This document shows, in pieces, positions 12,639 to 31,590 of a stretch of 64,000 nt of DNA (position 1 is its first letter; the number at the start of each line of letters is the position of its first letter). The notes under the pieces were generated by a model that was not told the origin of the DNA, did no database searches, and saw only the letters and a program-made list of their open reading frames with translations. This DNA comes from Guptibacillus hwajinpoensis (GTDB taxonomy: Bacteria > Bacillota > Bacilli > Bacillales > Guptibacillaceae), in the NCBI RefSeq assembly GCF_020171785.1, contig NZ_JAIVAE010000006.1:62001-126000 (forward strand), given 5' to 3'. The position numbers and the translations under genes were made by a program.

Positions 12639-13631
12639 ATGGCGATTTTAGTCACTGGTGGTGCCGGTTATATCGGGAGCCATACGGTTATGTATTTACA
12701 ACAGCAAAATGAAGATGTTGTCGTGCTTGATAATTTAACAAAAGGACATGAACAAGCTGTGCTTAACGTTCCTTTGTATAAAGGAGATTTAACAGATGGA
12801 AAAGTGATCGATCAAATTTTTGCCGATCATGAGATCGATTCTGTCATTCACTTTGCTGCGAGTTCACTTGTTGGAGAAAGCGTGACAAATCCGCTTGAAT
12901 ACTATCGAAACAACGTAGCGGGTTCGCAGGCGCTTGTATCAAAACTTGTTGAACATAATGTGAAATACATCGTGTTCTCATCGACGGCTGCCACTTATGG
13001 AAATCCAGAGCGAACGCCGATTGAGGAAGATGACGTGACAAATCCTACGAATCCGTATGGAGAAACGAAGCTTGCGATTGAGAAGATGCTGCGTTGGTGT
13101 GATGATGCTTACGGCTTAAAATCAACGTCGCTTCGCTACTTTAATGCAGCTGGTGCCGATCCAGAAGGGAATATTGGCGAAGATCATCAACCAGAATCGC
13201 ATCTCATTCCAATCGTCCTTCAGGCGGCGCTTGGTCAACGTGAGAAAGTCTCGATTTTCGGTGATGATTATGATACGAAAGATGGCACGTGTGTCCGTGA
13301 TTATATTCATGTCCTTGACCTTGCGCAGGCGCACTATCTGGCCTTGAAAAAGATGAAAAAAACGAATGAAAGCGGCATTTATAACCTTGGTAATGGCAAA
13401 GGATTTACGGTGAAAGAAGTGATTGATACGTGTCGTAATGTGACAGAGAAATCCATTGAAGCAGAAGTAGCGCCTCGTCGCGCTGGAGATCCAGCGACGT
13501 TAATTGCTTCTTCTTCCAAAGCGATGAATGAACTTGGGTGGAAGCCGGTCTATCCAGACCTTTCGCAAATTGTGGCGCACGCGTGGAGCTGGCATCAAAA
13601 TCATCCTGAAGGGTATGGAGATCAGTCATGA
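12639..13631 (+). CDS. galE: UDP-glucose 4-epimerase
   Basis: Short-chain dehydrogenase-type epimerase that interconverts UDP-galactose and UDP-glucose, closing the Leloir cycle. The NAD site GGAGYIGSH is at residues 7-15, the S/T region is SSTAATYG, and the catalytic Y140 and K144 are in NPYGETK. Length is 330 residues, typical. A GGAGGGGA ribosome site precedes the ATG. Its stop overlaps the start of the next gene by 4 nt (ATGA), which makes the M24-like protein a co-translated partner. Confidence 0.96.
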   Translation: MAILVTGGAGYIGSHTVMYLQQQNEDVVVLDNLTKGHEQAVLNVPLYKGDLTDGKVIDQIFADHEIDSVIHFAASSLVGESVTNPLEYYRNNVAGSQALVSKLVEHNVKYIVFSSTAATYGNPERTPIEEDDVTNPTNPYGETKLAIEKMLRWCDDAYGLKSTSLRYFNAAGADPEGNIGEDHQPESHLIPIVLQAALGQREKVSIFGDDYDTKDGTCVRDYIHVLDLAQAHYLALKKMKKTNESGIYNLGNGKGFTVKEVIDTCRNVTEKSIEAEVAPRRAGDPATLIASSSKAMNELGWKPVYPDLSQIVAHAWSWHQNHPEGYGDQS

Positions 13632-14707
13632 GTATTGAGAAGGTACGCTTATTTTTAGAAGAACACGGTTATGATGGGATCTTGCTTAGAAGGCGGAACA
13701 ATTTTTCCTGGATCACAGGCGGGAATACGAATTATATCGTTCAGACGATGGAAGCAGGCGTAGCGGACTGGATTATCACGCGTGATCAAGCGTACTTGGT
13801 GACGTCAAAAATGGAAGAGCGCCGTATTGTGGAAGAAGAATGTGCCGATCTGTCGTTTTCTTTTGAAGTGCTGTCTGATGATTGGTACAAGCCTGCTGAA
13901 GATTTAATTGAATCGGTAACGACTGGACTGCGGATGGCAGCTGACATGCCTTATGGCGACTGGGATGTAGTGGATGAAGAGCTTGGAAAGTATCGCTCGA
14001 TCTTGTCGGCTGATGAGCGTGAACGGTACCGTAATCTCTGTCAGAAAGCGGCCAAAGCGGTAGAAGAGACGTGCCGTGAAATTGTTCCAGGTCAAACGGA
14101 AAAAGAAATTGAAGCGCATCTTGCAGCAAAAATTCTTGCAGGTGGGATGTCGATTCAAGTGCTGCTCGTTGCAACAGATGAACGGATCTATCGCTATCGC
14201 CACCCAATTCCAACTGAGAAGAAGCTTGAGCGTCATGCGATGATTGTCATTTGTGCGGAAGAAGCAGGCCTTGTCGCAAACGTGACGCGACTCGTTTACT
14301 TTGACGAACAGCCAGAAGAATTGCGTCAGCATAGTGCTGCGGTTGCAAGGATTGATAGCGTGATGAATCATGCTACAAAAGTTGGAGCCACGGCTGGGGA
14401 AGTGATTCAAGCTGGTATTGAGGAGTACGCGAAGCAAGGCTTCCCGGAAGATTGGAAACTTCTTCATCAGGGCGGTTTAACCGGATTTAATTCGCGCGAA
14501 TTTCTCGCGAATCCGGAAACGCCAAACAAGATTGTCGTGAATCAAGCCTACGCATGGAATCCTTCTTTGCCTGGCGTAAAGTCAGAAGACACGGTGCTGC
14601 TCACTGAAGAGGGTCTTGAATTTATGACATATACAGGTGAATGGGTTTACCAGGATGTTGAGGTAGAAGGCGTTACGTACGTGCGGAATGCGGTGTTGGT
14701 GAGGTAG
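13628..14707 (+). CDS. M24-fold (creatinase/prolidase-like) protein with degenerate metal site
   Basis: 359 residues in two parts: a creatinase-type N-terminal domain (about 1-130) and a pita-bread C-terminal domain. The standard M24 metal ligands are two aspartates, a histidine and two glutamates. Here the aspartate positions appear as C209 and N218 in MIVICAEEAGLVANVTR. The first glutamate is replaced in QAYAWNPSLPG, and only E320 in KSEDTVLLTEEG, and perhaps H280 in LLHQGG, remain. Peptidase activity is therefore doubtful. It is translationally coupled to galE, implying a role in sugar metabolism that I cannot name. It ends just before a palindromic repeat. Confidence 0.72.
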   Translation: MSIEKVRLFLEEHGYDGILLRRRNNFSWITGGNTNYIVQTMEAGVADWIITRDQAYLVTSKMEERRIVEEECADLSFSFEVLSDDWYKPAEDLIESVTTGLRMAADMPYGDWDVVDEELGKYRSILSADERERYRNLCQKAAKAVEETCREIVPGQTEKEIEAHLAAKILAGGMSIQVLLVATDERIYRYRHPIPTEKKLERHAMIVICAEEAGLVANVTRLVYFDEQPEELRQHSAAVARIDSVMNHATKVGATAGEVIQAGIEEYAKQGFPEDWKLLHQGGLTGFNSREFLANPETPNKIVVNQAYAWNPSLPGVKSEDTVLLTEEGLEFMTYTGEWVYQDVEVEGVTYVRNAVLVR

Positions 14708-18418: not shown

Positions 18419-18433
18419 AGTGGTAGCGTGGCG

Positions 18434-18457
18434 GGGGTCAGGTTCGAATCTGACCCC
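18434..18457 (+). repeat. Dispersed palindrome, copy 2
   Basis: Core GGGGTCAGGTTC / GAATCTGACCCC, with one T for C that still allows a G-T pair. It lies 15 nt after the TcaA-like stop. Unlike copies 1, 3 and 4 it is not followed by the GTCCACC hairpin. Confidence 0.8.
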
Positions 18458-18491
18458 TATTACAAAAGTACTGATAATTTCAAAAAAACTA

Positions 18492-18521
18492 TTGCAATTA
18501 TGAATGCGTTTACAATATAAT
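18492..18521 (+). promoter_or_regulatory. Sigma-A promoter of the catabolic island
   Basis: TTGCAA (-35) and TATAAT (-10) separated by 18 nt, 58 nt upstream of the DUF4867 start. It is the strongest sigma-A-like promoter in the island and would drive DUF4867, the symporter and the GH31 gene. Confidence 0.7.
18501..18514 (+). promoter_or_regulatory. Putative cre (CcpA) site inside the promoter spacer
   Basis: TGAATGCGTTTACA matches the consensus TGWAARCGYTWNCW at 13 of 14 positions. It lies between the -35 and -10 boxes, where CcpA binding blocks RNA polymerase. This implies catabolite repression of the operon by preferred sugars. Confidence 0.68.
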
Positions 18522-18578
18522 GTGATAAAAGGTTATGATGTTTATATAAACATTACTACTTATATCGGAGGTACGGAT

Positions 18579-19244
18579 ATGATTGAAGTGTTACGAGAGC
18601 TAAATCCACATCTAGAAGTGAAGTCAGTAGATTCTGAAGCTTTTCGAGCATTTGGAAAGGTTCTTCCAGATTTCCCATATGAGAAGATAGCGGATTTGAT
18701 GAAGAAGACGGAGATTCCCGAACAGGGAAATCACTATGTTCCTTCGAGAGAAGAGCTAGAAGCGGAGTCGGTGAAAGCCTTCGTTGAAAACAGCTACTAT
18801 GGAGGGATGCCGGTACAGATTGGGTACTGTAACGGGAAAAATTCCGCTTTAGGTGGTCTTGAATTTCATAAGGGAAGTGAAATTAACGTTGCCATTACGG
18901 ATTTTGTACTCCTTCTAGGACATACGAAAGACATTACAAATCATACATACGATGTGAAGAATATTAAAGCGTTTTATATTCCAGAGGGTACCGCGATTGA
19001 AATGTTTCAAACAACCCTTCACCTTGCTCCATGTAAAGTGAGCGATGAAGGATTCAAATGTACAGTGATTTTGCCAGAAGGAACGAATACGCCGTTAGAA
19101 GATGCTCAAAAAGAACAAGATCCGCTCCTTTTTATGAAAAATAAATGGCTACTTGCTCATCCAGAGCATGAACGATTTATGTCACTTGGCGCTCACAACG
19201 GAATTGTCGGTGAAAATATAACAGTTGTTTACAGCAAGGGATAA
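18579..19244 (+). CDS. DUF4867 family protein (cupin-like), role in sugar catabolism unknown
   Basis: 221 residues, soluble, ATG at 18579 after CGGAGGTACGGAT; the longer open frame upstream includes the promoter and is not real. It resembles the DUF4867 family, with the conserved blocks GGLEFHKGSEINVAITDFVLLLG and FYIPEGTAIEMFQTTLHLAPC. The histidines, acid and beta-rich pattern suggest a cupin-like fold. As first gene of the operon, before a sugar symporter and a GH31 enzyme, it may handle the imported sugar, for instance as anomerase, isomerase or binding protein. That is speculation; no reaction is established from sequence. Confidence 0.75.
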   Translation: MIEVLRELNPHLEVKSVDSEAFRAFGKVLPDFPYEKIADLMKKTEIPEQGNHYVPSREELEAESVKAFVENSYYGGMPVQIGYCNGKNSALGGLEFHKGSEINVAITDFVLLLGHTKDITNHTYDVKNIKAFYIPEGTAIEMFQTTLHLAPCKVSDEGFKCTVILPEGTNTPLEDAQKEQDPLLFMKNKWLLAHPEHERFMSLGAHNGIVGENITVVYSKG

Positions 19245-19258
19245 AGGAGGACAACCTT

Positions 19259-21040
19259 ATGTCGGGTATCACATTCACATTAGTTTCATGCGTCTTCTTT
19301 ATGGCGCTCGTCGCGTGGGTTTCATACTTAAAAACAAGGAATTCAGTCAATGACTCAGATGGTTACTTTCTCGCAGGTCGAGGGTTAACGGGTGGATTTA
19401 TTGCAGGTTCTCTTTTGCTCACAAACCTATCTGCCGAACAGTTAATTGGCTTGAATGGACAAGCCTATCGAACGAACCTTTCCAACATGGCCTGGGAAGT
19501 GACAGCGGCATTTGCGATCGTCATTATGGCGCTTATCTTGCTACCTCGCTATCTTGGCGGTGCCTTTTCAACCTTACCTGAGTTTTTAAGTAAACGGTAT
19601 GATGAAAGCGTTCGCAGATACACAGTTATTTTATTCATGCTTGGTTATATGTTTGTGACGATTCCATCAGTCCTTTACTCTGGGGCACTTGCGATACTTC
19701 GTCTTTTCGATGTACCAGAGCTACTCGGCATTTCATTTGAATCGTCTGTCTGGCTCGTCATTTGGGTGATTGGCATTATCGGTGCTATTTATGCCATCTT
19801 TGGTGGGTTAAAAGCGGTAGCAGTATCCGATACGTTGAACGGAATAGGACTTCTCTTTATTGGCTTAATTGTTCCCATCCTCGGCTTTTTTGCCCTTGGA
19901 AACGGGGACATGTTAGAAGGAATCAAAACGATTACAACAGAAAATCCTGAGAAGTTAAATGCGATCGGATCGAGTACAGATTCTGTTCCGTTTTCTACTA
20001 TTTTTACCGGAATGATTTTTATGAATATGTTCTACTGGGGAACGAATCAGTACGTGATACAGCGAACGCTTGGTGCGAAGAACCTAGCAGAAGGTCAAAA
20101 AGGTGTACTACTTTCTGGATTTTATAAACTTACCGTACCATTTATGATGATGATTCCAGGAGTAATTGCTTTCCATCTCTATGGAAGCTCAATGGATCCA
20201 GTGGATCTCGCTTATCCAACGGTTGTGTCGAATTTGCTGCCGACATTTATGTCTGGACTCTTTCTAGCTGTGCTTCTCGGCGCCGTGTTCTCAAGTTTCA
20301 ACTCACTGTTAAACAGTGCGGCAACGATGTTTGCGCTTGATGTATACAAAGCTGGTATTAATAAAAACGCCACAGATCGCCAGCTGATCAATGTTAGTAA
20401 ATACTTTGGAAGCGTTCTCGCGCTTGTCTCTTTCTTTATTGCGCCAATGCTTATGAACGCACCGGATGGATTGTGGGATTTGATTCGCCGCTTTACAGGC
20501 TTCTTTAACATCCCGATTATTGCCATTGTTCTTGTTGGGATTGTTTCGAAACGCATCCCTGCACTTGGAGCGAAAATCGCGATTATTTTCCACGTGATTA
20601 CGTACTACATGCTTGTGTGGGGATTAAACCAGCTGTTTAACATTGAAATAACGATGAACTTTATTCATATTTCAGCCATCCTTTTCCTTATTGAGGTTAC
20701 GATCATGATGGTCGTTGGGCGCATTCGTCCTCTTCCTGAAGCGTATGAGTTCCGAGCGAATCCAAAGGTGGACATGGTGCCGTGGAAGTTTACGATTCCA
20801 GTTTCTGTTGTTCTCATTAGCCTTGTCGTGATGGTCTACATCCTCTTCTCACCAATTGGATTTGCCTACGCGGGTGGAATGGTTTCTGGATGGTTCTGGC
20901 CAGCGATCTTAGGAACGGCTGTCATTGGAGGAATTTGTTACCTTCTTGCCCTTAAATCATGGAATAAAAAATACTCTGGATTTGTTACTAGGAAGCATGA
21001 AGAAGCAGTTAACGCTGAAAAGAAATTTAGAAGCGCATAA
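19259..21040 (+). CDS. Sodium:solute symporter (SSS family)
   Basis: 593 residues with about 14 hydrophobic segments and SSS hallmarks: NDSDGYFLAGRGLTGGFIAGSLLLTNLSAEQLIGLNG near the N-terminus (abridged: YFLAGRGL, NLSAEQ), FGGLKAVAVSDTLNG, and GAVFSSFNSLLNSAATMFALDVY. These resemble the SGLT/sugar branch. It couples sodium entry to uptake of a sugar or glycoside. It starts with AAAGGAGG eight bases before the ATG, directly after DUF4867 and before the GH31 gene. If the pathway reading is right, its substrate is sulfoquinovose or sulfoquinovosyl glycerol; substrate is not shown by sequence. Confidence 0.92.
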   Translation: MSGITFTLVSCVFFMALVAWVSYLKTRNSVNDSDGYFLAGRGLTGGFIAGSLLLTNLSAEQLIGLNGQAYRTNLSNMAWEVTAAFAIVIMALILLPRYLGGAFSTLPEFLSKRYDESVRRYTVILFMLGYMFVTIPSVLYSGALAILRLFDVPELLGISFESSVWLVIWVIGIIGAIYAIFGGLKAVAVSDTLNGIGLLFIGLIVPILGFFALGNGDMLEGIKTITTENPEKLNAIGSSTDSVPFSTIFTGMIFMNMFYWGTNQYVIQRTLGAKNLAEGQKGVLLSGFYKLTVPFMMMIPGVIAFHLYGSSMDPVDLAYPTVVSNLLPTFMSGLFLAVLLGAVFSSFNSLLNSAATMFALDVYKAGINKNATDRQLINVSKYFGSVLALVSFFIAPMLMNAPDGLWDLIRRFTGFFNIPIIAIVLVGIVSKRIPALGAKIAIIFHVITYYMLVWGLNQLFNIEITMNFIHISAILFLIEVTIMMVVGRIRPLPEAYEFRANPKVDMVPWKFTIPVSVVLISLVVMVYILFSPIGFAYAGGMVSGWFWPAILGTAVIGGICYLLALKSWNKKYSGFVTRKHEEAVNAEKKFRSA

Positions 21041-21064
21041 ACGATAAATATGTAGGGGGAAATC

Positions 21065-23104
21065 ATGTTAAATACAAAAACGATCAAACCGAGTTTTGAA
21101 GTGAAGCAAAATGGAGAAGAATTTGACGTTCATCTGGACGGTCGCTTACTGTTTCGTCATTCACCAGCCCAACCATTTATTTTCGTTGGTAGCGGTGAAG
21201 AAACGATTGATATGTACAGAGGTAATTTTAAAATAAAAGATTATGTTGTGGAACGAGTAGCTCTTCGCTATGCAACAGTACGGTATGAAGGAGAGACGTG
21301 TCGCATCGGATTTCGCCACTTCTCTCACGATCACGAGCTGTTAACAATGGTATTAAAGCAAGACAAAGAAGGTCTGCGCGTATCGTTTGAGCTCGTAGAT
21401 CCTCTGTTTAATCGTTTCTGGTTACGCGTTGCCGCTGATGCCGATGAGAAAATTTATGGGTGTGGGGAACAGCTTTCCTATTTCAATTTAAGAGGAAAGA
21501 ACTTCCCACTCTGGACGTCTGAACCCGGTGTAGGACGGAATAAATCGACTTATACCACCTGGCAAGCCGATGTGAAAGATCAAGCTGGTGGCGACTATTA
21601 CAATACGAATTATCCTCAGCCAACCTATGTATCTACGAATAAATACTACTGCCATGTTGAGACGACGGCTTTCGCTGACTTCGATTTTCAGCGAGACGAT
21701 TTTCATGAGCTACACATTTGGGAAGCACCGGCTTCGATTTTGTTTGAAACAGGGCAGACGTATAAAGATCTCGTTGAAAAGCTAACTGCTCGTCTCGGTC
21801 GGCAACCAGAGCTTCCAGATTGGACGTTTGATGGCATCTGGCTCGGGATGCAGGGAGGAACGGAACGCGTACAAAATAAAATTGATCGCGCGATTGAAAA
21901 AGGAATGAAAATTGGCGCTGTTTGGTGCCAGGACTGGCAAGGTAAGCGTGTGACGTCATTTGGGAAACGCTTGATGTGGAACTGGAAATGGAATCCGGAG
22001 GAGTATCCTGAACTCGATCAAAAAGTGAAACAATGGAAGGAAAAAGGCATTCGTTTTATGGGATATATCAACCCTTATGTTGCAGTTGAAGGAGACCTGT
22101 ACCGTGAAGCCTATGACAATGGCTATCTTGCTACGGCGTTAGATGGCGGTGATTATGTGGTCGACTTCGGTGAATTCGATTGTGGCGTTGTTGATTTTAC
22201 AAACGAAGCGGCGTGTGAATGGTATGAAGACGTCATCCAAAAGAATATGATTGATTTTGGAATGGACGGATGGATGGCTGATTTTGGTGAATATTTGCCA
22301 ACAGACTTAAAGCTTCATAGCGGAGAACCAGCAACCAAAATGCACAACGCCTGGCCCGTCATGTGGGCAAAAGTGAATCATAACGCTGTTCAAAAAGCAG
22401 GACGCTGGGGCGATATTGTGTACTTTATGCGTGCTGGTTACTCAGGTAGTCAGGGGTACTGTCCATTACTATGGGCTGGCGATCAAAGTGTTGATTGGAG
22501 TCTCGACGATGGTCTTGCTTCCGTTATTCCAGCTACGCTATCTGCTGGGATGAGTGGAAATGGCGTTCATCATAGCGATATCGGTGGCTACACAAGTCTT
22601 CATGGCAACATGCGAAACAAAGAGCTACTGCTTCGCTGGGTTGATATGGCGGCATTTACACCTGTTATGCGAACGCACGAGGGAAATCGTCCTGATGATT
22701 GTTTCCAGTTTGATCAAGACGAAGAGACGCTCGAGCATTTTGTGAAAATGACAAACGTTTATACAGCACTGAAGCCTTATCTAAAAGCGTTAAGCAAAGA
22801 GAACGCTGAAAAAGGAATTCCGATTCAACGCCCGATGTTTATGGAGTATGAACATGATCTTGCTTCTTATAACATCCAATATCAATATATGCTAGGTTCA
22901 GAGATGGTGGTTGCACCGGTTTATGAAGAAGGAAAAGAAACATGGTCGGTGTACTTGCCTGAAGATGACTGGGTTCATTTATGGAGTGGTAAGGAAACAA
23001 GTGGAGGCCAGATTGAAGTGAACGCTCCGATTGGTGAAACGCCAGTCTTCTATCGCAAGCATTCGGACTATGCAGCTATTTTTCAACAAGCAGCACTTAA
23101 ATAA
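21065..23104 (+). CDS. yihQ: GH31 sulfoquinovosidase (YihQ-type alpha-glycosidase)
   Basis: Retaining GH31 enzyme of 679 residues, the length of E. coli YihQ. Nucleophile D406 is in WMADFGEY and acid/base D473 is in WAGDQSVDW. The residues that grip the sulfonate in YihQ are, as I recall, Q288, R301, W304 and Y508. All appear at a constant +1 offset: Q289 in CQDWQ, R302 and W305 in FGKRLMW, Y509 in DIGGYT. This set separates sulfoquinovosidases from ordinary alpha-glucosidases. It would release sulfoquinovose from sulfoquinovosyl glycerol derived from plant or algal sulfolipid. No signal peptide, so it acts in the cytoplasm after uptake. Confidence 0.85.
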   Translation: MLNTKTIKPSFEVKQNGEEFDVHLDGRLLFRHSPAQPFIFVGSGEETIDMYRGNFKIKDYVVERVALRYATVRYEGETCRIGFRHFSHDHELLTMVLKQDKEGLRVSFELVDPLFNRFWLRVAADADEKIYGCGEQLSYFNLRGKNFPLWTSEPGVGRNKSTYTTWQADVKDQAGGDYYNTNYPQPTYVSTNKYYCHVETTAFADFDFQRDDFHELHIWEAPASILFETGQTYKDLVEKLTARLGRQPELPDWTFDGIWLGMQGGTERVQNKIDRAIEKGMKIGAVWCQDWQGKRVTSFGKRLMWNWKWNPEEYPELDQKVKQWKEKGIRFMGYINPYVAVEGDLYREAYDNGYLATALDGGDYVVDFGEFDCGVVDFTNEAACEWYEDVIQKNMIDFGMDGWMADFGEYLPTDLKLHSGEPATKMHNAWPVMWAKVNHNAVQKAGRWGDIVYFMRAGYSGSQGYCPLLWAGDQSVDWSLDDGLASVIPATLSAGMSGNGVHHSDIGGYTSLHGNMRNKELLLRWVDMAAFTPVMRTHEGNRPDDCFQFDQDEETLEHFVKMTNVYTALKPYLKALSKENAEKGIPIQRPMFMEYEHDLASYNIQYQYMLGSEMVVAPVYEEGKETWSVYLPEDDWVHLWSGKETSGGQIEVNAPIGETPVFYRKHSDYAAIFQQAALK

Positions 23105-23197
23105 GCACGCGAAATAAAAGGTTACTACCTATTTTAAAACATAATAATGTATGATATAGTAAATGTAACAAATGGAGGAGAAAGGTTGTGACCAATC

Positions 23198-24541
23198 GTG
23201 CCAAAAACAAGCATTCTATACGTACCAATCGGAAGAAAGACGTTTGATCTAGAAGCGGGAGAGCTACAGCGAAAGAAAAGTTCGGAATTTCTGCATAGCG
23301 TGACCAAGAACGTGATTGAACCAGAGGAAATCATTACGTCTCCTGAAGATCTTGAGGCTTTTCTTGAAAACGTTAACAGCGATGATGTGATTGCAAGCAT
23401 CTATCAGAGCGTAACGTTTGCTGATGGTGAATTTGTTGAAGCGTTAATAAAAAAAGTGGAAGCGCCAGTGATTGTTTGGTCGGTACGTGAGCCAAGTGTA
23501 GGCGGAAGACTTCGCTTAAATTCGTTAACCGGCGGAAACAGCACAAGTCATGTGCTACGGTGTGCCAACCACCCATTTAGCTTTGTATTCGGAAATGGGG
23601 ATGAGGCGCAAGTACAAAAGAGAATTAAAGTTCAACTGAAAGTGCAAAAAGTAATTGAAGATCTGAAAGGTCTTACAATTGGTGTGATTGGAGAACATCC
23701 ACCAGGCTTTTTCTTCTCAGGAACGGATGAAGAAGCGCTTCAAAAACAACTTGGCGTAACGGTGAAAAACTTCGATTTAAACAAAGCATTTGAAGAATGC
23801 GTTAAGCTACCTCGTGAAAAATGGGAAGGCGCGATTGAACGAGCAGAGCAACAGGTGATTGGGCTAAATCGGAATGAAGAAACGGTACAGCGATTTGCTC
23901 AGTTTACGACGTATGTTCAGGAACAAATTGATGCAGAAGACGTATCAGCGCTTGCGATCCGCTGCTGGCCAGACTTTTTCAATGAGCTTGGTGCTGCGGC
24001 ATGTTCAACCCTTTCTCAATTTACTGAGGACGGCGTTGTGTCATCGTGTGAATCCGATATTCACGGTTCAGTATCGATGTTTATTCTGCAACAGCTAACA
24101 GGAAGTGCGCCGTATCTTGGCGATATGGTTCACGTCAATGAAGCAAGTAATTCGGTTGTGTTCTGGCATTGCGGTGCTGGCGCTTATTCGCTCGCCCATC
24201 CTGATCAAGGTGCACGCCCAGGCGTTCATCCAAACCGAAAGCTAGGCTTTACGATGGAATTTGGATTAAAACCAGGTCGCGTGACGATGTTCCGCGTTGG
24301 CTATACGCCAGAAGGATATCGCTTGCTTGTGATGCGAGGAAACGCACTCGATACGCCTCAGCGTTTCAATGGAACGTCTGTTGAAGTGGAACTTGAAACC
24401 GAAATCAATGACACGTTATATGGGTTAATGGAAGAAGGCTTCGAACCACACTACGCCATTATTTATGATGATGTAGCCGATGAGCTCGTTGAACTTGGAA
24501 AGCAGCTTGGTCTGAAGACGACGGTCTATACAAAGAACTGA
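23198..24541 (+). CDS. Fucose/arabinose-isomerase-like sugar isomerase, proposed sulfoquinovose isomerase
   Basis: 447 residues. The general layout of the L-fucose/L-arabinose isomerase fold is visible: an N-terminal Rossmann-like part (VPIGRKTFDLEAG), a middle domain, and a C-terminal half with likely metal-site residues in CESDIHG (E285, D287, H289) and WHCG (324-326). It starts at GTG 23198, since an in-frame stop lies three codons before, with a GGAGGAGAAAGG site somewhat far upstream. Between a sulfoquinovosidase and a PfkA-like kinase it would turn sulfoquinovose into sulfofructose. The fold is fairly clear; the substrate is inferred from neighbours. Confidence 0.72.
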   Translation: MPKTSILYVPIGRKTFDLEAGELQRKKSSEFLHSVTKNVIEPEEIITSPEDLEAFLENVNSDDVIASIYQSVTFADGEFVEALIKKVEAPVIVWSVREPSVGGRLRLNSLTGGNSTSHVLRCANHPFSFVFGNGDEAQVQKRIKVQLKVQKVIEDLKGLTIGVIGEHPPGFFFSGTDEEALQKQLGVTVKNFDLNKAFEECVKLPREKWEGAIERAEQQVIGLNRNEETVQRFAQFTTYVQEQIDAEDVSALAIRCWPDFFNELGAAACSTLSQFTEDGVVSSCESDIHGSVSMFILQQLTGSAPYLGDMVHVNEASNSVVFWHCGAGAYSLAHPDQGARPGVHPNRKLGFTMEFGLKPGRVTMFRVGYTPEGYRLLVMRGNALDTPQRFNGTSVEVELETEINDTLYGLMEEGFEPHYAIIYDDVADELVELGKQLGLKTTVYTKN

Positions 24542-24555
24542 AGGGAGACAGTTGC

Positions 24556-25719
24556 ATGAAAAAGGTCGCTATTGGTCAGGCCGGGGGACCTACGGCCGTA
24601 ATAAATGCTACCCTCGCAGGGTTTGTGAAAGAGATCGAACGCGATCATTCTCTGCTTTTTATACAAAATGGTTATGAAGGATTAGCGCATGGGATGTATT
24701 TAGATGGTGATGATGAGATGCTACGTCGCATCCATCTTCATCGAGACGTACCTGGGGCGTGTCTTGGATCAGGTCGGTTTCCACTAACAGATGAGCATAT
24801 TGAAAAAGGGGTGCACCTGCTACAGGCGCAGGGGGTCGATGTGCTTGTTTTTATCGGCGGTAACGGAACCATGGAAGCACTAGCGAAAGTAGAATTGGAA
24901 GCAAAGAGGCAAAATTTTTCCCTTCAAGTCATCGGACTTCCCAAAACGGTGGATAACGATCTCGGTGGTACAGATCATGCGCCTGGCTTTGGAAGTTCGG
25001 CTCGATATGTTGCTCAGGCGACGCGAGATATGAGCCGCGACCTCGCTTCTATGAAGAATTTTGAAAAAGTTCGTGTACTTGAAACGATGGGAAGAAACGC
25101 AGGGTGGCTGGCCGCGGCATCTGGGCTTCTTAAGGAGTATGAAGAAGAAGGGCCGCATTTTATTGGTATTCCAGAGCGACCAATTCAAGCAGAAATGCTT
25201 CTTGAAAATGTAAACACCGCATTAAATCGGTTTGGGTATGCCACGGTCGTTGTGAGTGAAGGCGTTTGTTTTGGAAAGACGGGTCAAGTAGCGCGAGGAA
25301 ATGTCGCTGGTAGAACAGTGCTTGGTGGAATTTCCAATGAGGTAGCTGGCTTTTTAAAAAGTGAGTTAAACGTTATGACAAGAGCTGAACTTCTAGGCAT
25401 GAACCAGCGAAGTTTTTCTGAAGTCGTTTCGGACGTTGATCGAGAAGAAGCTTATCGTGTGGGGAGCGTTGGAGGCGAATGGATTCGTGAAGGGGTTTCA
25501 AATGTGATGGTCTCCATTCAACGGAATGCTCACCATCGCTATTCAGTAAGGATGACCCCGATTGAACTTCGTAACGTAGTGGCTGCTGGAGAACGAGTGA
25601 TGCCTGAGGTGTTCATTGAAGATCAGAAAGCATATTATCAATGGCTAAAACCGCTTATCGGTGAAGATATTAGGTCGTACCCACCGCCATTACATAGGAC
25701 TGAAATGTATGTCGATTAA
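24556..25719 (+). CDS. PfkA-family sugar-phosphate kinase, proposed sulfofructose 1-kinase
   Basis: 387 residues of the 6-phosphofructokinase fold. Donor-site motifs are GGNGT at 101-105 and PKTVDND at 129-135, with catalytic D133, and METMGRNAGW follows. Lysine in PKT is typical of pyrophosphate-dependent enzymes, while the glycine kept in GGNGT is typical of ATP users, and the usual GGD aspartate is asparagine. The donor is therefore undecided. In this operon it would phosphorylate sulfofructose at C1, since C6 carries the sulfonate. It is not the housekeeping enzyme, which is normally about 320 residues. An AAGGGAGA site precedes the ATG; the GntR gene overlaps its 3' end by 11 nt. Confidence 0.75.
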   Translation: MKKVAIGQAGGPTAVINATLAGFVKEIERDHSLLFIQNGYEGLAHGMYLDGDDEMLRRIHLHRDVPGACLGSGRFPLTDEHIEKGVHLLQAQGVDVLVFIGGNGTMEALAKVELEAKRQNFSLQVIGLPKTVDNDLGGTDHAPGFGSSARYVAQATRDMSRDLASMKNFEKVRVLETMGRNAGWLAAASGLLKEYEEEGPHFIGIPERPIQAEMLLENVNTALNRFGYATVVVSEGVCFGKTGQVARGNVAGRTVLGGISNEVAGFLKSELNVMTRAELLGMNQRSFSEVVSDVDREEAYRVGSVGGEWIREGVSNVMVSIQRNAHHRYSVRMTPIELRNVVAAGERVMPEVFIEDQKAYYQWLKPLIGEDIRSYPPPLHRTEMYVD

Positions 25720-26431
25720 TCAGAACGGAGAGGCGCTTTATCTCCAAATAAAAGATGTTCTGATCGACCGCATTCAGAGTGGAACGTGGAAACCAAATAC
25801 GATCATTCCAACAGAGCAAGCGCTCATCAAGGAATTTGGTGTTAGCCGGACGACGATTCGTCAGGCCATTGCGATTCTCGTTCAAAATGGTTTGCTCGAA
25901 AAGAAACAGGGTCATGGCACGATCGTAAAGCCACATCAATTGGTAGGTAACCTTGGGCAGTTAAAAGGTTTTGCGGAAGAAGTAATGGAAAAAGGGCAGG
26001 TTCCTTCATCCAAATTGATACGAGCTGAATTTAAGGAAAACCTTTTTCATGAAAGTGAAATGCTTCAAGTGGCTGAAGGAGCTCCGATTCTTCTCGTTGA
26101 ACGCATACGGTTTGCGGATGAGACGCCTGTTGCCCTTGAACGAACGTGCTGGCCAGAGTCAATTGGAAAGATACTTATGCAGCATGATTTAAATAAAGCG
26201 AAATACTATGAAATTCTAGAAAACTATCAGGTTTATTTAAACAAAGCAAAAGAGCGAATTGCCGCGATTAACGCTACGATTGATGAAGCAGATTCATTGG
26301 CGATCCGGCCGGGTGAAGCATTACTTGAAATGACGCGTCTCAGCTATGGATTGAATGATCATCCAATCGAATATACAAAAACGAAATACAGAAGTGATCA
26401 GTACCATTACAATATTGAATTGAAACGATAG
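25709..26431 (+). CDS. GntR-family (HutC/UTRA) transcriptional regulator
   Basis: 240 residues. It has an N-terminal winged helix (ALYLQIKDVLIDRIQSGTW; EFGVSRTTIRQAIAILVQNGLL; KKQGHGTIV) and a C-terminal UTRA effector domain (LLVERIRFADETPVALERTCWP; DHPIEYTKTKYRSDQYHY). The ATG at 25709 overlaps the end of the kinase gene by 11 nt; the open frame continues upstream but the domain starts here. It is the local specific regulator of the island and would respond to a pathway intermediate such as a sugar phosphate. No operator palindrome was found with confidence. Confidence 0.9.
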   Translation: MSINQNGEALYLQIKDVLIDRIQSGTWKPNTIIPTEQALIKEFGVSRTTIRQAIAILVQNGLLEKKQGHGTIVKPHQLVGNLGQLKGFAEEVMEKGQVPSSKLIRAEFKENLFHESEMLQVAEGAPILLVERIRFADETPVALERTCWPESIGKILMQHDLNKAKYYEILENYQVYLNKAKERIAAINATIDEADSLAIRPGEALLEMTRLSYGLNDHPIEYTKTKYRSDQYHYNIELKR

Positions 26432-26446
26432 AAGGGAGAAATGATG

Positions 26447-27337
26447 ATGCCATTTATTAACGGAAAAACAATGCTGGATCATGCTTTTCAAAATGGATAT
26501 GGGGTAGGGGCATTTAGCGCACATAACGCAGAAACCGTGCTAGCGATTTTTGAAGCAGCTGCAGAGGAAAAGGCACCTATTATGATACAAGTGGGGCAGA
26601 AAGTAATTCAAACCCTGGGCATGGAAGCATTAAAAGGGTTGATCGATACGTATGAAAGAGAGTTTGATGTTCCTGTCGCGATTCACCTTGATCACAGCCG
26701 TCAGTTCGAGCAAACGATGCAAGCTGTGCAAATGGGCTTCCAATCCGTCATGTTTGATGGGTCTGGTTTATCTTTTGAAGAAAACACGGCAACCACGAAA
26801 AAAGTGGTCGATATTGCAAGAGCACTTGGGATTGGATCAGAAGGAGAAATCGGTAAAATCGGTGGCACGGAAGATGACATTACGGTTGATGAAAAGGATG
26901 CACTGATTACAACGACAGAAGAAGCCGTCGCTTTCGTAGAAGCAACAGATGTGGATTACCTCGCCGTATCGATTGGAACAGCACACGGAATTTATAAAGA
27001 AACGCCTAACCTTCGTTTCGAGCGATTAAAAGAAATTGTTGATGCAGTCAAGCGTCCAGTTGTCCTACACGGCGGATCCGATGTGCCGGATGAGCAGGTG
27101 CAACGAGCGATTTCACTAGGTATTGCGAAAATCAATGTGGACACTGAGCTTCGTCAGGCATTTACGAGAGGCGTTCAAGAAGCTTTTGCAGAAAACCCGG
27201 ATGATATTGTGCTCGCTAGTTCACTTGGTCTCGGTCGCTTACGCATGAAAGAAAAAGTTCAGGAAAAGATTCGCGTATTTGGTAGTCAGGGGAAAGCAGA
27301 AGAACTTTTGTCAGGTAAAAAGGTCGTAACGTTATAA
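26447..27337 (+). CDS. Class II fructose-bisphosphate-aldolase-family enzyme, proposed sulfofructose-1-phosphate aldolase
   Basis: About 296 residues of the zinc-dependent class II aldolase family. The metal ligands lie in HLDHSR, GTAHG and LHGGSD, and SEGEIGKIGG carries the conserved glutamate. Three ATGs occur in tandem; the third (26447) has the best spacing to GAAGGGAG and gives the family start MPF. In this operon it would split sulfofructose-1-phosphate into dihydroxyacetone phosphate and sulfolactaldehyde. E. coli uses an unrelated class I enzyme (YihT) for that step. A tagatose- or fructose-bisphosphate role is the alternative. Confidence 0.82.
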   Translation: MPFINGKTMLDHAFQNGYGVGAFSAHNAETVLAIFEAAAEEKAPIMIQVGQKVIQTLGMEALKGLIDTYEREFDVPVAIHLDHSRQFEQTMQAVQMGFQSVMFDGSGLSFEENTATTKKVVDIARALGIGSEGEIGKIGGTEDDITVDEKDALITTTEEAVAFVEATDVDYLAVSIGTAHGIYKETPNLRFERLKEIVDAVKRPVVLHGGSDVPDEQVQRAISLGIAKINVDTELRQAFTRGVQEAFAENPDDIVLASSLGLGRLRMKEKVQEKIRVFGSQGKAEELLSGKKVVTL

Positions 27338-27357
27338 AAGAGGAGGATGATGTTAAC

Positions 27358-28791
27358 GTGGCTACACAAACTTCAGTTCGAACTTATGGGCTATTCATCA
27401 ATGGGGAATGGCGAGAAAAAACAGCAACAGATGACGTGCTAAACAAGTATACCCAAGAAATAGCAGCGAAAACAGGTACAGCTGATGAACAGGATGTAAC
27501 CGATGCGGTGCAAGCGGCTAAGACAGCATTGAAAACCCCTTTTTCGCCTTACGATCGATACACGGTTTTGCTTAAGGCAGCCGCAACACTTCGAGCTCGT
27601 CAGGATGAGCTTGGAGAAGTGCTTGCTAAGGAAGTTGGAAAGCCTTTAGCGGAGTGTAAAGGTGAAGTAGGTCGTGCTGCTCTAACATTAGAAGTTTCGG
27701 CAGAAGAAGCAAAGCGAATTCACGGCGAAGGTATTCCGGTTGAAGCTGCGCCTGGGTCAGAACAGCGTCAGGCGTATACTAGACGCTTTCCAATTGGGGT
27801 TGTTGCAGCGATCACGCCATTTAACGTACCACTGAATCTTGTGTGCCACAAAATTGGCCCTGCACTTGCAGCTGGCAATAGCGTGGTATTAAAACCAGCT
27901 GAAGTGACGCCGGTTTGTGCGATTCTTTTAACGGAAATATTTGAAGAAGCGGGACTTCCAGCAGGACGCCTAAATTTGATTACGGGAGAGGGAGCAACGG
28001 TAGGCGAATGGCTTCTTTCGAATCAAGATGTGAACATGTTTACCTTCACTGGAAGTCCACGTGTTGGGCAACATATTCGTGAAAAAGCAGGATTGCGTAA
28101 AGTAGCGTTAGAGCTAGGAAACAATTCAGCGACGATTGTGCATCATGATGCCGACGTTGAAACAGCGGCAACGCAGTCAGCGCAAAAAAGTTTTAATAAT
28201 GCAGGGCAAGTTTGTATTTCAGTCCAACGCGTCTATGTCCATGAAGATATTTATGAGCCGTTTCTTGCAAAAATGAAGGAAGTAACAGAAGGACTTGTTT
28301 TAGGTGATCCAATGGACGCGGCGACTGATATTGGCCCGATGATTGCTGAACGTGAAGCAATTCGCGTCGAGAGCTGGGTACAAGAAGCAGTTGATCAGGG
28401 AGCTGTGATTGAAACGGGTGGAAAACGAGATGGCGTTTTCTATCAACCTACGATTCTCACGAATGTGAATGATGATATGAAGGTTTGTCGTCAAGAAGTC
28501 TTTGGTCCGGTCGTAGCGGTAAGCACGTACCGTTCAACAGATGACGTGATTGCGAGAGTGAATGATTCCGAGTATGGTCTTCAAGCTGGGCTCTTTACGA
28601 ATGATCTCGCGTTTACCTTAAAGGCGATCAATGAGGTTCATGTAGGTGGACTCATAATTAATGATACGTCAGGCTATCGTGTTGATCATATGCCATACGG
28701 TGGCGTGAAGAAAAGTGGAACGGGCAAAGAAGGTCCGCGCTATGCGATTGAAGAAATGACGGAAGAAAAAATTATCGTTTTTAACGGATGA
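27358..28791 (+). CDS. Aldehyde dehydrogenase, proposed sulfolactaldehyde dehydrogenase
   Basis: NAD(P)-dependent aldehyde dehydrogenase of 477 residues. The conserved asparagine motif is TPFNVPLN, the glycine-rich FTGSPRVG follows, general base E252 is in LELGNN, and catalytic C286 is in NAGQVCISVQR. It belongs with the lactaldehyde/succinate-semialdehyde-type group. GTG start with AGGAGG about 11 nt upstream. As last gene of the main operon it is placed to oxidise sulfolactaldehyde to sulfolactate. A terminator follows at once. The family is certain; the substrate comes from context. Confidence 0.88.
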   Translation: MATQTSVRTYGLFINGEWREKTATDDVLNKYTQEIAAKTGTADEQDVTDAVQAAKTALKTPFSPYDRYTVLLKAAATLRARQDELGEVLAKEVGKPLAECKGEVGRAALTLEVSAEEAKRIHGEGIPVEAAPGSEQRQAYTRRFPIGVVAAITPFNVPLNLVCHKIGPALAAGNSVVLKPAEVTPVCAILLTEIFEEAGLPAGRLNLITGEGATVGEWLLSNQDVNMFTFTGSPRVGQHIREKAGLRKVALELGNNSATIVHHDADVETAATQSAQKSFNNAGQVCISVQRVYVHEDIYEPFLAKMKEVTEGLVLGDPMDAATDIGPMIAEREAIRVESWVQEAVDQGAVIETGGKRDGVFYQPTILTNVNDDMKVCRQEVFGPVVAVSTYRSTDDVIARVNDSEYGLQAGLFTNDLAFTLKAINEVHVGGLIINDTSGYRVDHMPYGGVKKSGTGKEGPRYAIEEMTEEKIIVFNG

Positions 28792-28798
28792 GAGTAGA

Positions 28799-28833
28799 AA
28801 GGGGGCCGATGAATCGAATCGGTTCCCTTTTCA
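28799..28833 (+). terminator. Terminator after the aldehyde dehydrogenase gene
   Basis: 12-bp stem AAGGGGGCCGAT / ATCGGTTCCCTT with two G-T pairs and a 7-nt loop, running into TTTTCATCC. It closes the main operon before the AEC carrier gene. Confidence 0.75.
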
Positions 28834-28880
28834 TCCTCTAATAGGACGCTATAGCTTTTAGAAGCTGAAGGAGAATGAAG

Positions 28881-29789
28881 ATGTCGATCATAACCATACT
28901 GCTACCGATCTTTTTCGTATTTGGCGTCGGTTATCTTGCGCAGCGCTTTTTAAAATTAGAGACGAGGGTCCTCTCAAATCTCGCGTTATATGTGCTCGTG
29001 CCGCTTCTTGTTTTTCGAACGTTCTATGAACAAGAAATTGATTCGTCCTACGGGTATTTATCGATCTACATGCTTGGTTTGTGCTTTGCACTGATTGGGC
29101 TTGTCAGCATTTTATCGAAAATATACGGCTATACCGAATCAGAACGGTGCGGTTTGGTTTTGTCGAGCGCATTTATGAATAACGGAAATTATGGCACGCC
29201 GCTTGTCCTGTTTCTATTTGGAACGCTCGGAATGGAAACGGCGATTGTGTTAATGGTGCTACAGCAGTTGTTAATGAGCACGCTTGGGGTCTACTATGCG
29301 GCAAAAGGAAGTCCAGATCACGACGGAATTAAAGCAGCCCTTAGAGCAGTGAGAAAAATGCCGATGGTTTACGGTGCCATTGTTGGTCTTTTGTTTCAAT
29401 GGTTACAAATTCCGCTCGGCACGATCCGTGATGGCGTGGACTTGATAGCGGATGCAGCGATTCCCGTTATTATGGTGACGCTCGGCATGCAGCTTGCCAA
29501 TATACGGTTGCGTGCGATTGATTGGCAAAAGCTATCAACGGCGCTATCGCTTAAATTAATGATTGCGCCGCTTATTGCTGCTGGAATTGTTGTATTTATG
29601 CCTGTGGATCCATTGACAAAACAAATTATGATCATTATGGCGGCAACGCCGACTGCCGCCAATACGACGATGTACGCCATTCAATTTCATACGGAACCTC
29701 AAAACGTTTCGAGTGCAACGCTTGTATCTACTGTGTCGAGTTTAGCTACGATGCCAGTGGTGATTTATTTAGCGACGACGTTTGTGTGA
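28881..29789 (+). CDS. AEC-family (auxin efflux carrier type) transporter
   Basis: 302 residues with ten hydrophobic segments in two inverted halves, typical of AEC transporters that move organic anions. Markers are FVFGVGYLAQRFLK at the start, the LSSAFMNNGNYGTPLVLFLFG crossover in the first half, and TPTAANTTMYAIQF in the second. The ATG at 28881 has GAAGGAG 6 nt away, better than the ATG two codons earlier. Right after the proposed sulfolactate-forming dehydrogenase, it is a candidate for exporting sulfolactate or another anionic end product. This is inference; direction and substrate are unknown. Confidence 0.85.
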   Translation: MSIITILLPIFFVFGVGYLAQRFLKLETRVLSNLALYVLVPLLVFRTFYEQEIDSSYGYLSIYMLGLCFALIGLVSILSKIYGYTESERCGLVLSSAFMNNGNYGTPLVLFLFGTLGMETAIVLMVLQQLLMSTLGVYYAAKGSPDHDGIKAALRAVRKMPMVYGAIVGLLFQWLQIPLGTIRDGVDLIADAAIPVIMVTLGMQLANIRLRAIDWQKLSTALSLKLMIAPLIAAGIVVFMPVDPLTKQIMIIMAATPTAANTTMYAIQFHTEPQNVSSATLVSTVSSLATMPVVIYLATTFV

Positions 29790-29840: not shown

Positions 29841-29884
29841 AAAAGGCGAAAGTGTCCACCCCAGGCGGACACTTTCGCCTTTTT
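29841..29884. terminator. Strong bidirectional terminator (GTCCACC hairpin)
   Basis: 13-bp perfect stem GGCGAAAGTGTCC / GGACACTTTCGCC, extended by AAAA/TTTT, followed by a T-run on both strands. It serves the AEC gene and the small minus-strand gene. Its apical part is the motif shared with repeats 1 and 4. Confidence 0.9.
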
Positions 29885-30150: not shown

Positions 30151-31353
30151 TTAAGGGTGCTGAATATTGGCATATGACGCTTCTACAACTTCGCCATTAA
30201 AAGCAGATTGATAGATCGCGCGAATATCGGCTTCGTAAAGAGGAAGCGGGCTTCTGGCAAGAAGTCTTTTCTGTTTCAGACCGTCTTCAGTGAGTGATTC
30301 AAGTGCTGAACTTGGAATATCAAAACCGCTAAGTGTACTTGGAATGCCGACATCCTTAACAAGTCTTTCTAATTGGCGAACGCATTCATAGGAAGCTTCC
30401 TCTTCTGAAAGAAATTGAGAGTTACCACCGAGCGCGTTCAATATATCCCCCATTCGCTTTGTACAGCTTTTTCGAATATATCCCATCACATATGGAAGCA
30501 ACACCGCATTGGATTCTCCATGAGCAATGTGAAACTGACCGCCAAGAGGATAGGCGAGAGCATGAACGCCGGCCACTCCTGCATTAAAGAAGGCAAGGCC
30601 GGCCATATAGCTTCCGTTACTCATATCGATACGTGCTTTCCGATCTTCTCCATTCGTAACGGCGCGTCTGATGGAGCGGCTAATTAGCCGGATTGCTTGT
30701 AAAGCAAGTCCATCCGTCGTCGGACTTGCGTTGACCGAGACGTACGCTTCAATCGCATGGGTAAGGGCATCAACACCTGTTGCCGCGGTAACCTTTGCCG
30801 GTACAGAAAGGGTGAGTTCTGGGTCAACAATCGCTGCATCTGCGAGTAGATAGTCGTGTGTAACGACATCTTTTGAGCTTTCAAGAGAGAGCACCGCGAT
30901 ATTGGTTACTTCAGAACCAGTTCCTGCTGTTGTAGGGATTAGTATTTTAGGGCGGCCTTTGTCCGTAATCTCTCGGTTTCCTGATAAATTGAGATAATCA
31001 CTGGCAGAACCGTCATGTGCCGATAAAACGGCCGTTAATTTGGCGAGATCTAATGCACTTCCTCCGCCTAGGCCGATAACGAGATCGAATGCCTTTTCTT
31101 TCGTATAGCTGACGAGTTCTTCACCAATGGCGAGAGGGGGTTCAGGAACAATATCTGTATAAATGTCGACTGTATACCCTGCATTCTCTAGGGGAATGCG
31201 TACGCGGTCAACGAGACCAATGTCATTTAAAACGGGATCAGTTACAACAAGAATACGCTCAGGCGAGTGCTTCTCTACCTCAGGTAAAAGCTGTTCAAGT
31301 GCCCCCCATCCGGTGTAACTGAGTGGCGTGAAAACAAGTTTTGAAAAAGACAT
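30151..31353 (-). CDS. Iron-containing alcohol dehydrogenase
   Basis: 400 residues of the group III metal alcohol dehydrogenase family. The NAD-binding part carries GLGGGSALDLAK and TTAGTGSEVT. The metal ligands are in the GVDALTHAIEAYVS and HALAYPLGGQFHIAHGESNAV segments. The start is placed at the ATG at 31353, preceded by AAGGAGG; the upstream open frame lacks support. It reduces an aldehyde or oxidises an alcohol with NAD(P). Next to the proposed sulfoquinovose genes, a role reducing sulfolactaldehyde to dihydroxypropanesulfonate is possible, but it is separately transcribed and could be unrelated. Confidence 0.9.
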   Translation of the reverse strand: MSFSKLVFTPLSYTGWGALEQLLPEVEKHSPERILVVTDPVLNDIGLVDRVRIPLENAGYTVDIYTDIVPEPPLAIGEELVSYTKEKAFDLVIGLGGGSALDLAKLTAVLSAHDGSASDYLNLSGNREITDKGRPKILIPTTAGTGSEVTNIAVLSLESSKDVVTHDYLLADAAIVDPELTLSVPAKVTAATGVDALTHAIEAYVSVNASPTTDGLALQAIRLISRSIRRAVTNGEDRKARIDMSNGSYMAGLAFFNAGVAGVHALAYPLGGQFHIAHGESNAVLLPYVMGYIRKSCTKRMGDILNALGGNSQFLSEEEASYECVRQLERLVKDVGIPSTLSGFDIPSSALESLTEDGLKQKRLLARSPLPLYEADIRAIYQSAFNGEVVEASYANIQHP

Positions 31354-31590
31354 ACGGTGTTGCCTCCTTTTGTTTAGATAAGCGTTATACGACAGAGGTT
31401 CGTGATTCAATAAAGAAAACCCTTCATTTAAAATGTGAAGAACTTCTCAATAGAAGACCAATTTTTATGATTGTGGAAAAAGATTTACTGAAATTTCTAG
31501 ATTAAATCGGATGAAAAAAGGTTATAAAAAGGTAATATAGGAGATTTGTATCTTCACCAGATCTGGTTTAAAGCGAAAGGGGAGAGTGAA

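Follow-up and report, generated by a model that had tools for sequence, protein, structure and literature searches.

Analysis of a 64,000-nucleotide stretch of the Guptibacillus hwajinpoensis genome (contig NZ_JAIVAE010000006.1; hereafter the window, with positions counted from its first base) revealed nine genes at 18492-29789 that are all located on the plus strand and are tightly packed in a single operon, in the order SqvB, SSS-family symporter, glycoside hydrolase family 31 (GH31) protein, SqvD, SqiK, GntR-type regulator, SqiA, SlaB, and AEC-family transporter (Table 1). A preliminary description of this locus had proposed a sulfoquinovose (SQ) catabolic island ending in sulfolactate, with an isomerase, a PfkA-like kinase, a class II aldolase, and an aldehyde dehydrogenase downstream of the GH31 gene. 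All of these genes are present in the operon, whereas SqvB (DUF4867) as its first gene, the symporter, the GntR regulator, the AEC transporter, and the closeness of the kinase to pyrophosphate-type enzymes went unmentioned there. The proposal is supported by the set of protein families and by synteny with a characterised locus: to judge from its sequence, the operon almost certainly encodes the second sulfo-Embden–Meyerhof–Parnas pathway (sulfo-EMP2) with sulfolactate as the end product. The island is already explained by this published pathway, found here in a further genus.

Table 1. Predicted features of the operon, its flanks, and the M24 gene discussed with it.
Feature	Position	Strand	Basis
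Promoter TTGCAA-18-TATAAT	18492..18521	+	10/12 consensus matches (promoter scan)
Dyad ATGTTTATATAAACAT, candidate operator	18538..18553	none	exact core at 18540
SqvB/SftX, DUF4867 cupin, putative SQ ring-opening enzyme/mutarotase	18579..19244	+	PF16161, 258 bits
SSS-family sodium:solute symporter	19259..21040	+	PF00474; NF007790 over cut-off
GH31 sulfoquinovosidase, YihQ type	21065..23104	+	NF007746, 1031.9 bits; YihQ residues aligned
SqvD/SftI sulfoquinovose isomerase	23198..24541	+	NF048012, 810.7 bits (cut-off 700)
SqiK, PFK-family sulfofructose 1-kinase (G104, K130)	24556..25719	+	PF00365, 172 bits; NF010675, 334 bits
GntR/HutC-like regulator, UTRA domain	25715..26431	+	PF00392 and PF07702; overlaps SqiK end
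SqiA, class II (Zn) sulfofructose-1-phosphate aldolase	26441..27337	+	PF01116, 325 bits
SlaB/GabD-type sulfolactaldehyde dehydrogenase	27358..28791	+	PF00171
AEC-family transporter	28875..29789	+	PF03547; ends nine-gene order in 21/46 related loci
Terminator-like hairpin, 3' of operon	29841..29883	none	20-pair stem, T-rich tail
Degenerate M24 (pita-bread) protein	13628-14707		last gene of galactose (Leloir) operon

According to PMC9594981, sulfo-EMP2 comprises SqvB (PF16161), SqvD (PF02952), SqiK (PF00365), and SqiA (PF01116), followed by oxidation of sulfolactaldehyde (SLA) in aerobic Bacilli; it was characterised for Bacillus urumqiensis (original work by Liu et al. 2021), with the enzymes acting on SQ, and PMC12890257 agrees with this account. 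The operon in the window likewise contains an SqvD isomerase, a PF00365 kinase, a PF01116 aldolase, and an SLA dehydrogenase. Homologues of E. coli YihS, YihV, and YihT are absent from it, the isomerase, kinase, and aldolase belonging to other Pfam families, which bears out what had been said of them in the preliminary description. The question raised there, whether this is the route reported in Gram-positive bacteria or a new variant, was answered by comparing the gene order with that of Alkalicoccus (Bacillus) urumqiensis, whose locus (L078) was found by a genome scan and is syntenic with the window except for the symporter. Sequence identities to this locus are 41% for SqvB, 62% for YihQ, 61% for SqvD, 45% for SqiK, 65% for both GntR and SqiA, 59% for SlaB, and 46% for the AEC protein. 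A new variant of sulfoglycolysis was rejected, since the family set and the synteny equal those of published sulfo-EMP2.

A phmmer comparison with chains of the Protein Data Bank (PDB) matched the GH31 protein to E. coli YihQ (PDB 5aed; E 9.9e-273, 910 bits) and the related chains 8r56, 6pnr, and 5ohs, with the next GH31 enzymes scoring far lower, at 165 bits. The alignment to 5aed is gap-free (query 213-315 to chain 212-314, and likewise for the blocks from 316 to 521), so that the constant offset of one relative to YihQ numbering noticed earlier proved correct, and Q289, R302, W305, D406, D473, and Y509 are homologous to YihQ Q288, R301, W304, D405, D472, and Y508. We take Q288, R301, W304, and Y508 to be the sulfonate-binding residues of YihQ, and D405 and D472 to be catalytic; chain 5aee has N in place of D472 of 5aed, and therefore supports the acid/base position. 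One further match is Q263, which corresponds to Q at YihQ 262. No signal peptide was recognised by eye.

The label of the NCBIfam model for the GH31 protein is alpha-glucosidase, and ordinary sugar enzymes exist within the GH31, PFK, and class II aldolase families, so that the island could in principle serve an ordinary alpha-glucoside or another hexose. Against this stand the complete set of YihQ Q, R, W, and Y residues, the score of the isomerase above the SQ-isomerase cut-off, the sulfonate-site residues of SlaB described below, and the synteny with the characterised sulfo-EMP2 locus. In a survey of 44 GH31 proteins of the scanned loci, the same four residues are present in 37, an E takes the place of Q289 in L089, and three divergent proteins (L133, L135, and L136) lack the R/W block. 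On the basis of this survey, a generic alpha-glucosidase island was rejected as extremely improbable. The survey also revealed YihQ-like GH31 proteins near SqvD in which Gln replaces the Arg matching YihQ R301 (3/44: L126, L146, and L149); the substrate of these enzymes may differ.

The other enzymes point to sulfo-EMP2 as well. Besides its match to the SQ-isomerase model, SqvD narrowly exceeds the cut-off of the FucI family PF02952 (30.0 versus 29.3 bits). SqiA carries the metal-ligand motifs HLDHS, GTAHG, and LHGGS, and its best PDB matches (E about 1e-122) are 8q57-8q5a, named ketose- or tagatose-bisphosphate aldolases in the table of matches, which we take to be class II sulfofructose phosphate aldolases. 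SlaB has F155-N156-V157, H164, and N280, with C286 as the nucleophile by motif. F-N-V, H, and N at these positions are named for B. megaterium SlaB as the proposed sulfonate site of Bacillus enzymes in PMC10599462, where PF00171 is given as the family of SLA dehydrogenases. Since sulfosugars besides SQ are catabolised in nature (PMC12421959), the substrate might be a different 6-sulfo-sugar, such as sulfofucose; this is very improbable, given that SqvD passes the SQ-isomerase equivalog, that the GH31 protein has the YihQ residue set, and that SQ was the substrate used to characterise the enzymes of B. urumqiensis (PMC9594981). Likewise, SqvB and SqvD are common to sulfo-EMP2 and to the sulfo-transaldolase (sulfo-TAL) and sulfo-transketolase (sulfo-TK) pathways (PMC9594981), which would allow SQ to be degraded via one of the latter two, leaving another role to the kinase and aldolase. 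However, none of the nine genes matches a transaldolase or transketolase family, and of the 41 loci of the SqiK scan that contain SqvD (the other five of the 46 lack it and were left out; the kinase is present by construction), 38 also have the aldolase, which makes such a split of functions scarcely conceivable.

Among the curated models, SqiK matches NF010675/PRK14072 (diphosphate-fructose-6-phosphate phosphotransferase) best, with a score over the cut-off, and its best PDB matches, 3hno and 3k2q, are pyrophosphate (PPi)-dependent phosphofructokinases (PPi-PFKs), so that in the same sulfo-EMP2 operon this step could be driven by PPi instead of ATP. In an alignment to PfkA and PPi-PFK, SqiK has N103, G104, K130, and M282 at what we take to be positions 103, 104, 124, and 249 of E. 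coli PfkA. At position 104 of PFKs, Gly is the mark of enzymes that use ATP and Asp that of enzymes that use PPi; by the same kind of rule, K130 is of the PPi type. G104 is invariant in 12 aligned congeneric SqiKs, none of which shows Asp104, whereas D (GGND) occupies this position in the PPi-type relatives that these searches recovered. In a midpoint-rooted tree of 72 PFKs, printed without support values, the GGND sequences form one group, apart from that of the window, and the GGNG sequences form several others. In addition, the review PMC9594981 names SqiK a kinase. Use of PPi by SqiK of the window was rejected on the GGND/GGNG comparison and appears unlikely. Kinases of the GGND type occur in four clostridial SqvD-containing loci, of which L090 also encodes an aldolase, an ABC importer, YihQ with its residue set complete, and a relative of SqvD scoring 536 bits (below the cut-off), and L123, L124, and L125 have no YihQ in the fetched stretch. 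The residue suggests, as a lead, PPi-driven sulfofructose kinases in these four loci, and the sugar of the latter three may differ; a literature search found no title on a PPi-dependent sulfofructose kinase.

In the proposed sulfo-EMP2 scheme, SQ or SQ-glycerol would be imported by the SSS symporter, a probable role to judge from its position, and the GH31 enzyme would hydrolyse the glycoside intracellularly to alpha-SQ. SqvB would probably assist ring opening of SQ, and SqvD would convert the open-chain form to sulfofructose (SF), which SqiK would phosphorylate at O1, the sulfonate standing in for the 6-phosphate of fructose-6-phosphate. SqiA would then cleave SF-1-phosphate into dihydroxyacetone phosphate, entering glycolysis, and SLA, to be oxidised to sulfolactate by SlaB. 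No match to PF04295, the SuyB family, was found in the genome (the family is present in 5 of 14 control genomes); therefore, sulfolactate is probably exported rather than cleaved, and the position of the AEC protein makes it the probable exporter. The GntR protein would control the operon, perhaps via the dyad downstream of the promoter.

Several points weigh against this assignment. No PDB relative of SqvD was detected by phmmer at E 0.001, and no SSS match was found in the fetched A. urumqiensis stretch. The substrates of the SSS and AEC transporters are not predictable from their families. For a DUF4867 protein, PMC11968277 reports a structure and undetectable mutarotase or kinase activity, and leaves the function open.

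All nine genes occur in the same order in 21 of the 46 loci from the SqiK scan. Within the genus, SqiK of at least 76% identity adjoins SqvD, GntR, and SqiA in 12 of 14 genomes, including that of the window. Among named relatives, Pseudalkalibacillus spartinae is the closest, with 97% identity in SqiK, so that the window very likely comes from Pseudalkalibacillus. The ratios of nonsynonymous to synonymous substitution rates (dN/dS) of the nine genes relative to loci L038 and L040 are 0.013-0.117, evidence of purifying selection; comparisons with three more distant loci were saturated for most genes. Within the genus, the SqiK and SqvB proteins diverge several times faster than SqvD or SqiA. 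Positive selection as the cause was rejected, since both genes are under purifying selection according to dN/dS.

A second locus is found in 4 of the 14 congeneric genomes (L084-L087; also L069, L075, and L081). It carries a Gfo/Idh/MocA protein, a GntR regulator 77% identical to that of the operon, an ABC sugar importer, and an additional SqiK of about 50% identity. The Gfo/Idh/MocA protein may be an NAD-dependent sulfoquinovosidase of family GH188; PMC10755693 mentions a gene of this family for Salibacterium qingdaonense (cf. L055).

Position 18492 is the -35 box of the operon promoter and not a gene start, and the conserved ribosome-binding site suggests that SqvB starts at 18579 and not at the ATG at 18504. 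Matches to the promoter consensus are not commoner in the stretch than in shuffled sequences (24 versus 25.0 expected), and the promoter call therefore rests on conservation: TTGC and TATAAT are unchanged in 10/10 aligned upstream regions, those of the window and nine relatives. In the same ten sequences, the GTTT/AAAC arms of the dyad ATGTTTATATAAACAT are constant and its centre is variable. Among 30 scanned upstream regions, a near-perfect dyad is present in seven (the window, L038, L039, L040, L045, L067, and L072), L041-L044 have the arms only, and no dyad was seen in the more distant relatives scanned. A near-perfect dyad also precedes the second-locus operon in one genome (L081/L086). 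This distribution supports a candidate operator for the GntR regulator in the close group only. Another short inverted repeat, GGGGTCAGG...CTGACCCC, lies at 18433-18458 between a TcaA-like gene and the operon, and has a similar form in L038 and L040-L042, but not in L043-L045 or L067. On the other side, the island is adjoined by a minus-strand gene (30151-31410) of an iron-containing alcohol dehydrogenase, the closest models of which are lactaldehyde reductase with scores below the cut-offs; because it is found in just 3 of the 46 related loci, it was not counted as part of the operon.

A second gene of the window could bear on the role of SqvB. The galactose operon beside the island, which contains genes for a substrate-binding protein, two permeases, GH35, GH36, LacI, galK, galT, GH42, and galE, ends with a degenerate M24 gene and includes no GalM, and PF01263 (GalM) has no match in the window's genome. 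Among the 14 genomes of the genus, galK is present in 12, M24 in nine, and GalM, as a strong match (E below 1e-80), in three; M24 and strong GalM never co-occur, and both are missing from the two genomes that lack galK. In the three GalM genomes (G009, G005, and G007), which do not form a clade in the galK tree, the same operon stops at galE without M24, and GalM is located elsewhere in the genome; measured against one of these GalMs, the other two have 66% and 57% identity.

In the window M24 protein, at least three of the five metal ligands of P. furiosus prolidase, as we take these to be, are lost in the alignment, and the structure predicted for it, with a mean pLDDT of 93.5, gave matches to prolidases, creatinase, and ectoine hydrolase. 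Related proteins were found next to SqvD, where SqvB and M24 occur together in none of the 70 fetched loci. The 41 SqvD loci of the SqiK scan include 35 with SqvB, three with M24, and three with neither, and 29 loci from SqvD searches, which have no near-identical stretch in common with the former, include seven, 14, and eight, respectively; the fetched loci span 5.6-21 kb, so that genes farther away would be missed, and Fisher values for this pattern are overstated, since related genomes are not independent. The motifs HQGG and Q...WNP...G.K.E.T are common to the window M24 and all 17 M24 proteins of SqvD loci. In wider, overlapping samples, the M24 family is present in 42/338 and 51/398 genomes; the 40 regions fetched from these matches all lack a GalM label, and of the 36 in which M24 was labelled, 12 contain galK. 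Neighbours of 10 sampled M24 proteins include ROK regulators, TRAP-type transporters, a mannitol-dehydrogenase-family protein, and a KduI/IolB protein.

One could hypothesise, with somewhat less than even confidence, that this M24 family, having lost the peptidase ligands, is an unrecognised family of aldose mutarotases or ring-opening enzymes, with the member in the window serving galactose and others replacing SqvB near SqvD; therefore, SqvB would be the SQ ring-opener feeding SqvD. If true, this would provide a role for DUF4867/SqvB, account for galactose operons that lack galM, and define a new family of mutarotases, which at present only peptidase models match. A number of observations argue against it. 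The three GalM genes lie outside the galactose operon, G012 has an M24 gene with an internal deletion yet no PF01263 match, and G006 and G010 carry M24 together with a weak PF01263 gene. Both SqvB and M24 are lacking in 11 SqvD loci, and a check of the loci for GalM-like genes matched only L066 and L089, both of which carry SqvB. The full YihQ residue set occurs in just two of the 17 M24 loci (L065 and L090), and therefore SQ need not be the sugar for many of them. Some M24 relatives adjoin EcsB, HlyD, or MreB-like genes, and among the 36 wider relatives, 34 have HQGG and 29 have the WNP motif. Finally, SqvB and M24 co-occur in the window, where 8.5 kb separate SqvD from the M24 gene, which belongs to a different operon. 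No title on an M24 mutarotase was among the literature matches listed, with subscription journals mostly outside reach, and term look-ups in five papers gave no mention of peptidase or M24.

With this operon, Pseudalkalibacillus joins the bacteria that carry sulfo-EMP2, and sequence alone sufficed to place the cluster in the right pathway. The A. urumqiensis sulfo-EMP2 locus (PMC9594981, PMC12890257) has the same order of SqvB, YihQ, SqvD, SqiK, GntR, SqiA, SlaB, and AEC; the SSS symporter between SqvB and YihQ is a feature of the window, while in the A. urumqiensis stretch, genes resembling those of sugar ABC transporters lie past AEC on the opposite strand. The classical sulfo-EMP pathway of E. 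coli (YihQ/S/V/T) shares with the window the YihQ-type GH31 enzyme and the intermediates, but its isomerase, kinase, and aldolase come from unrelated families, and it yields 2,3-dihydroxypropane-1-sulfonate where sulfolactate is the end product expected here. Sulfo-TAL and sulfo-TK have SqvB and SqvD (PMC9594981), and often YihQ, in common with the window, and employ a transaldolase or a transketolase where the window has SqiK and SqiA.

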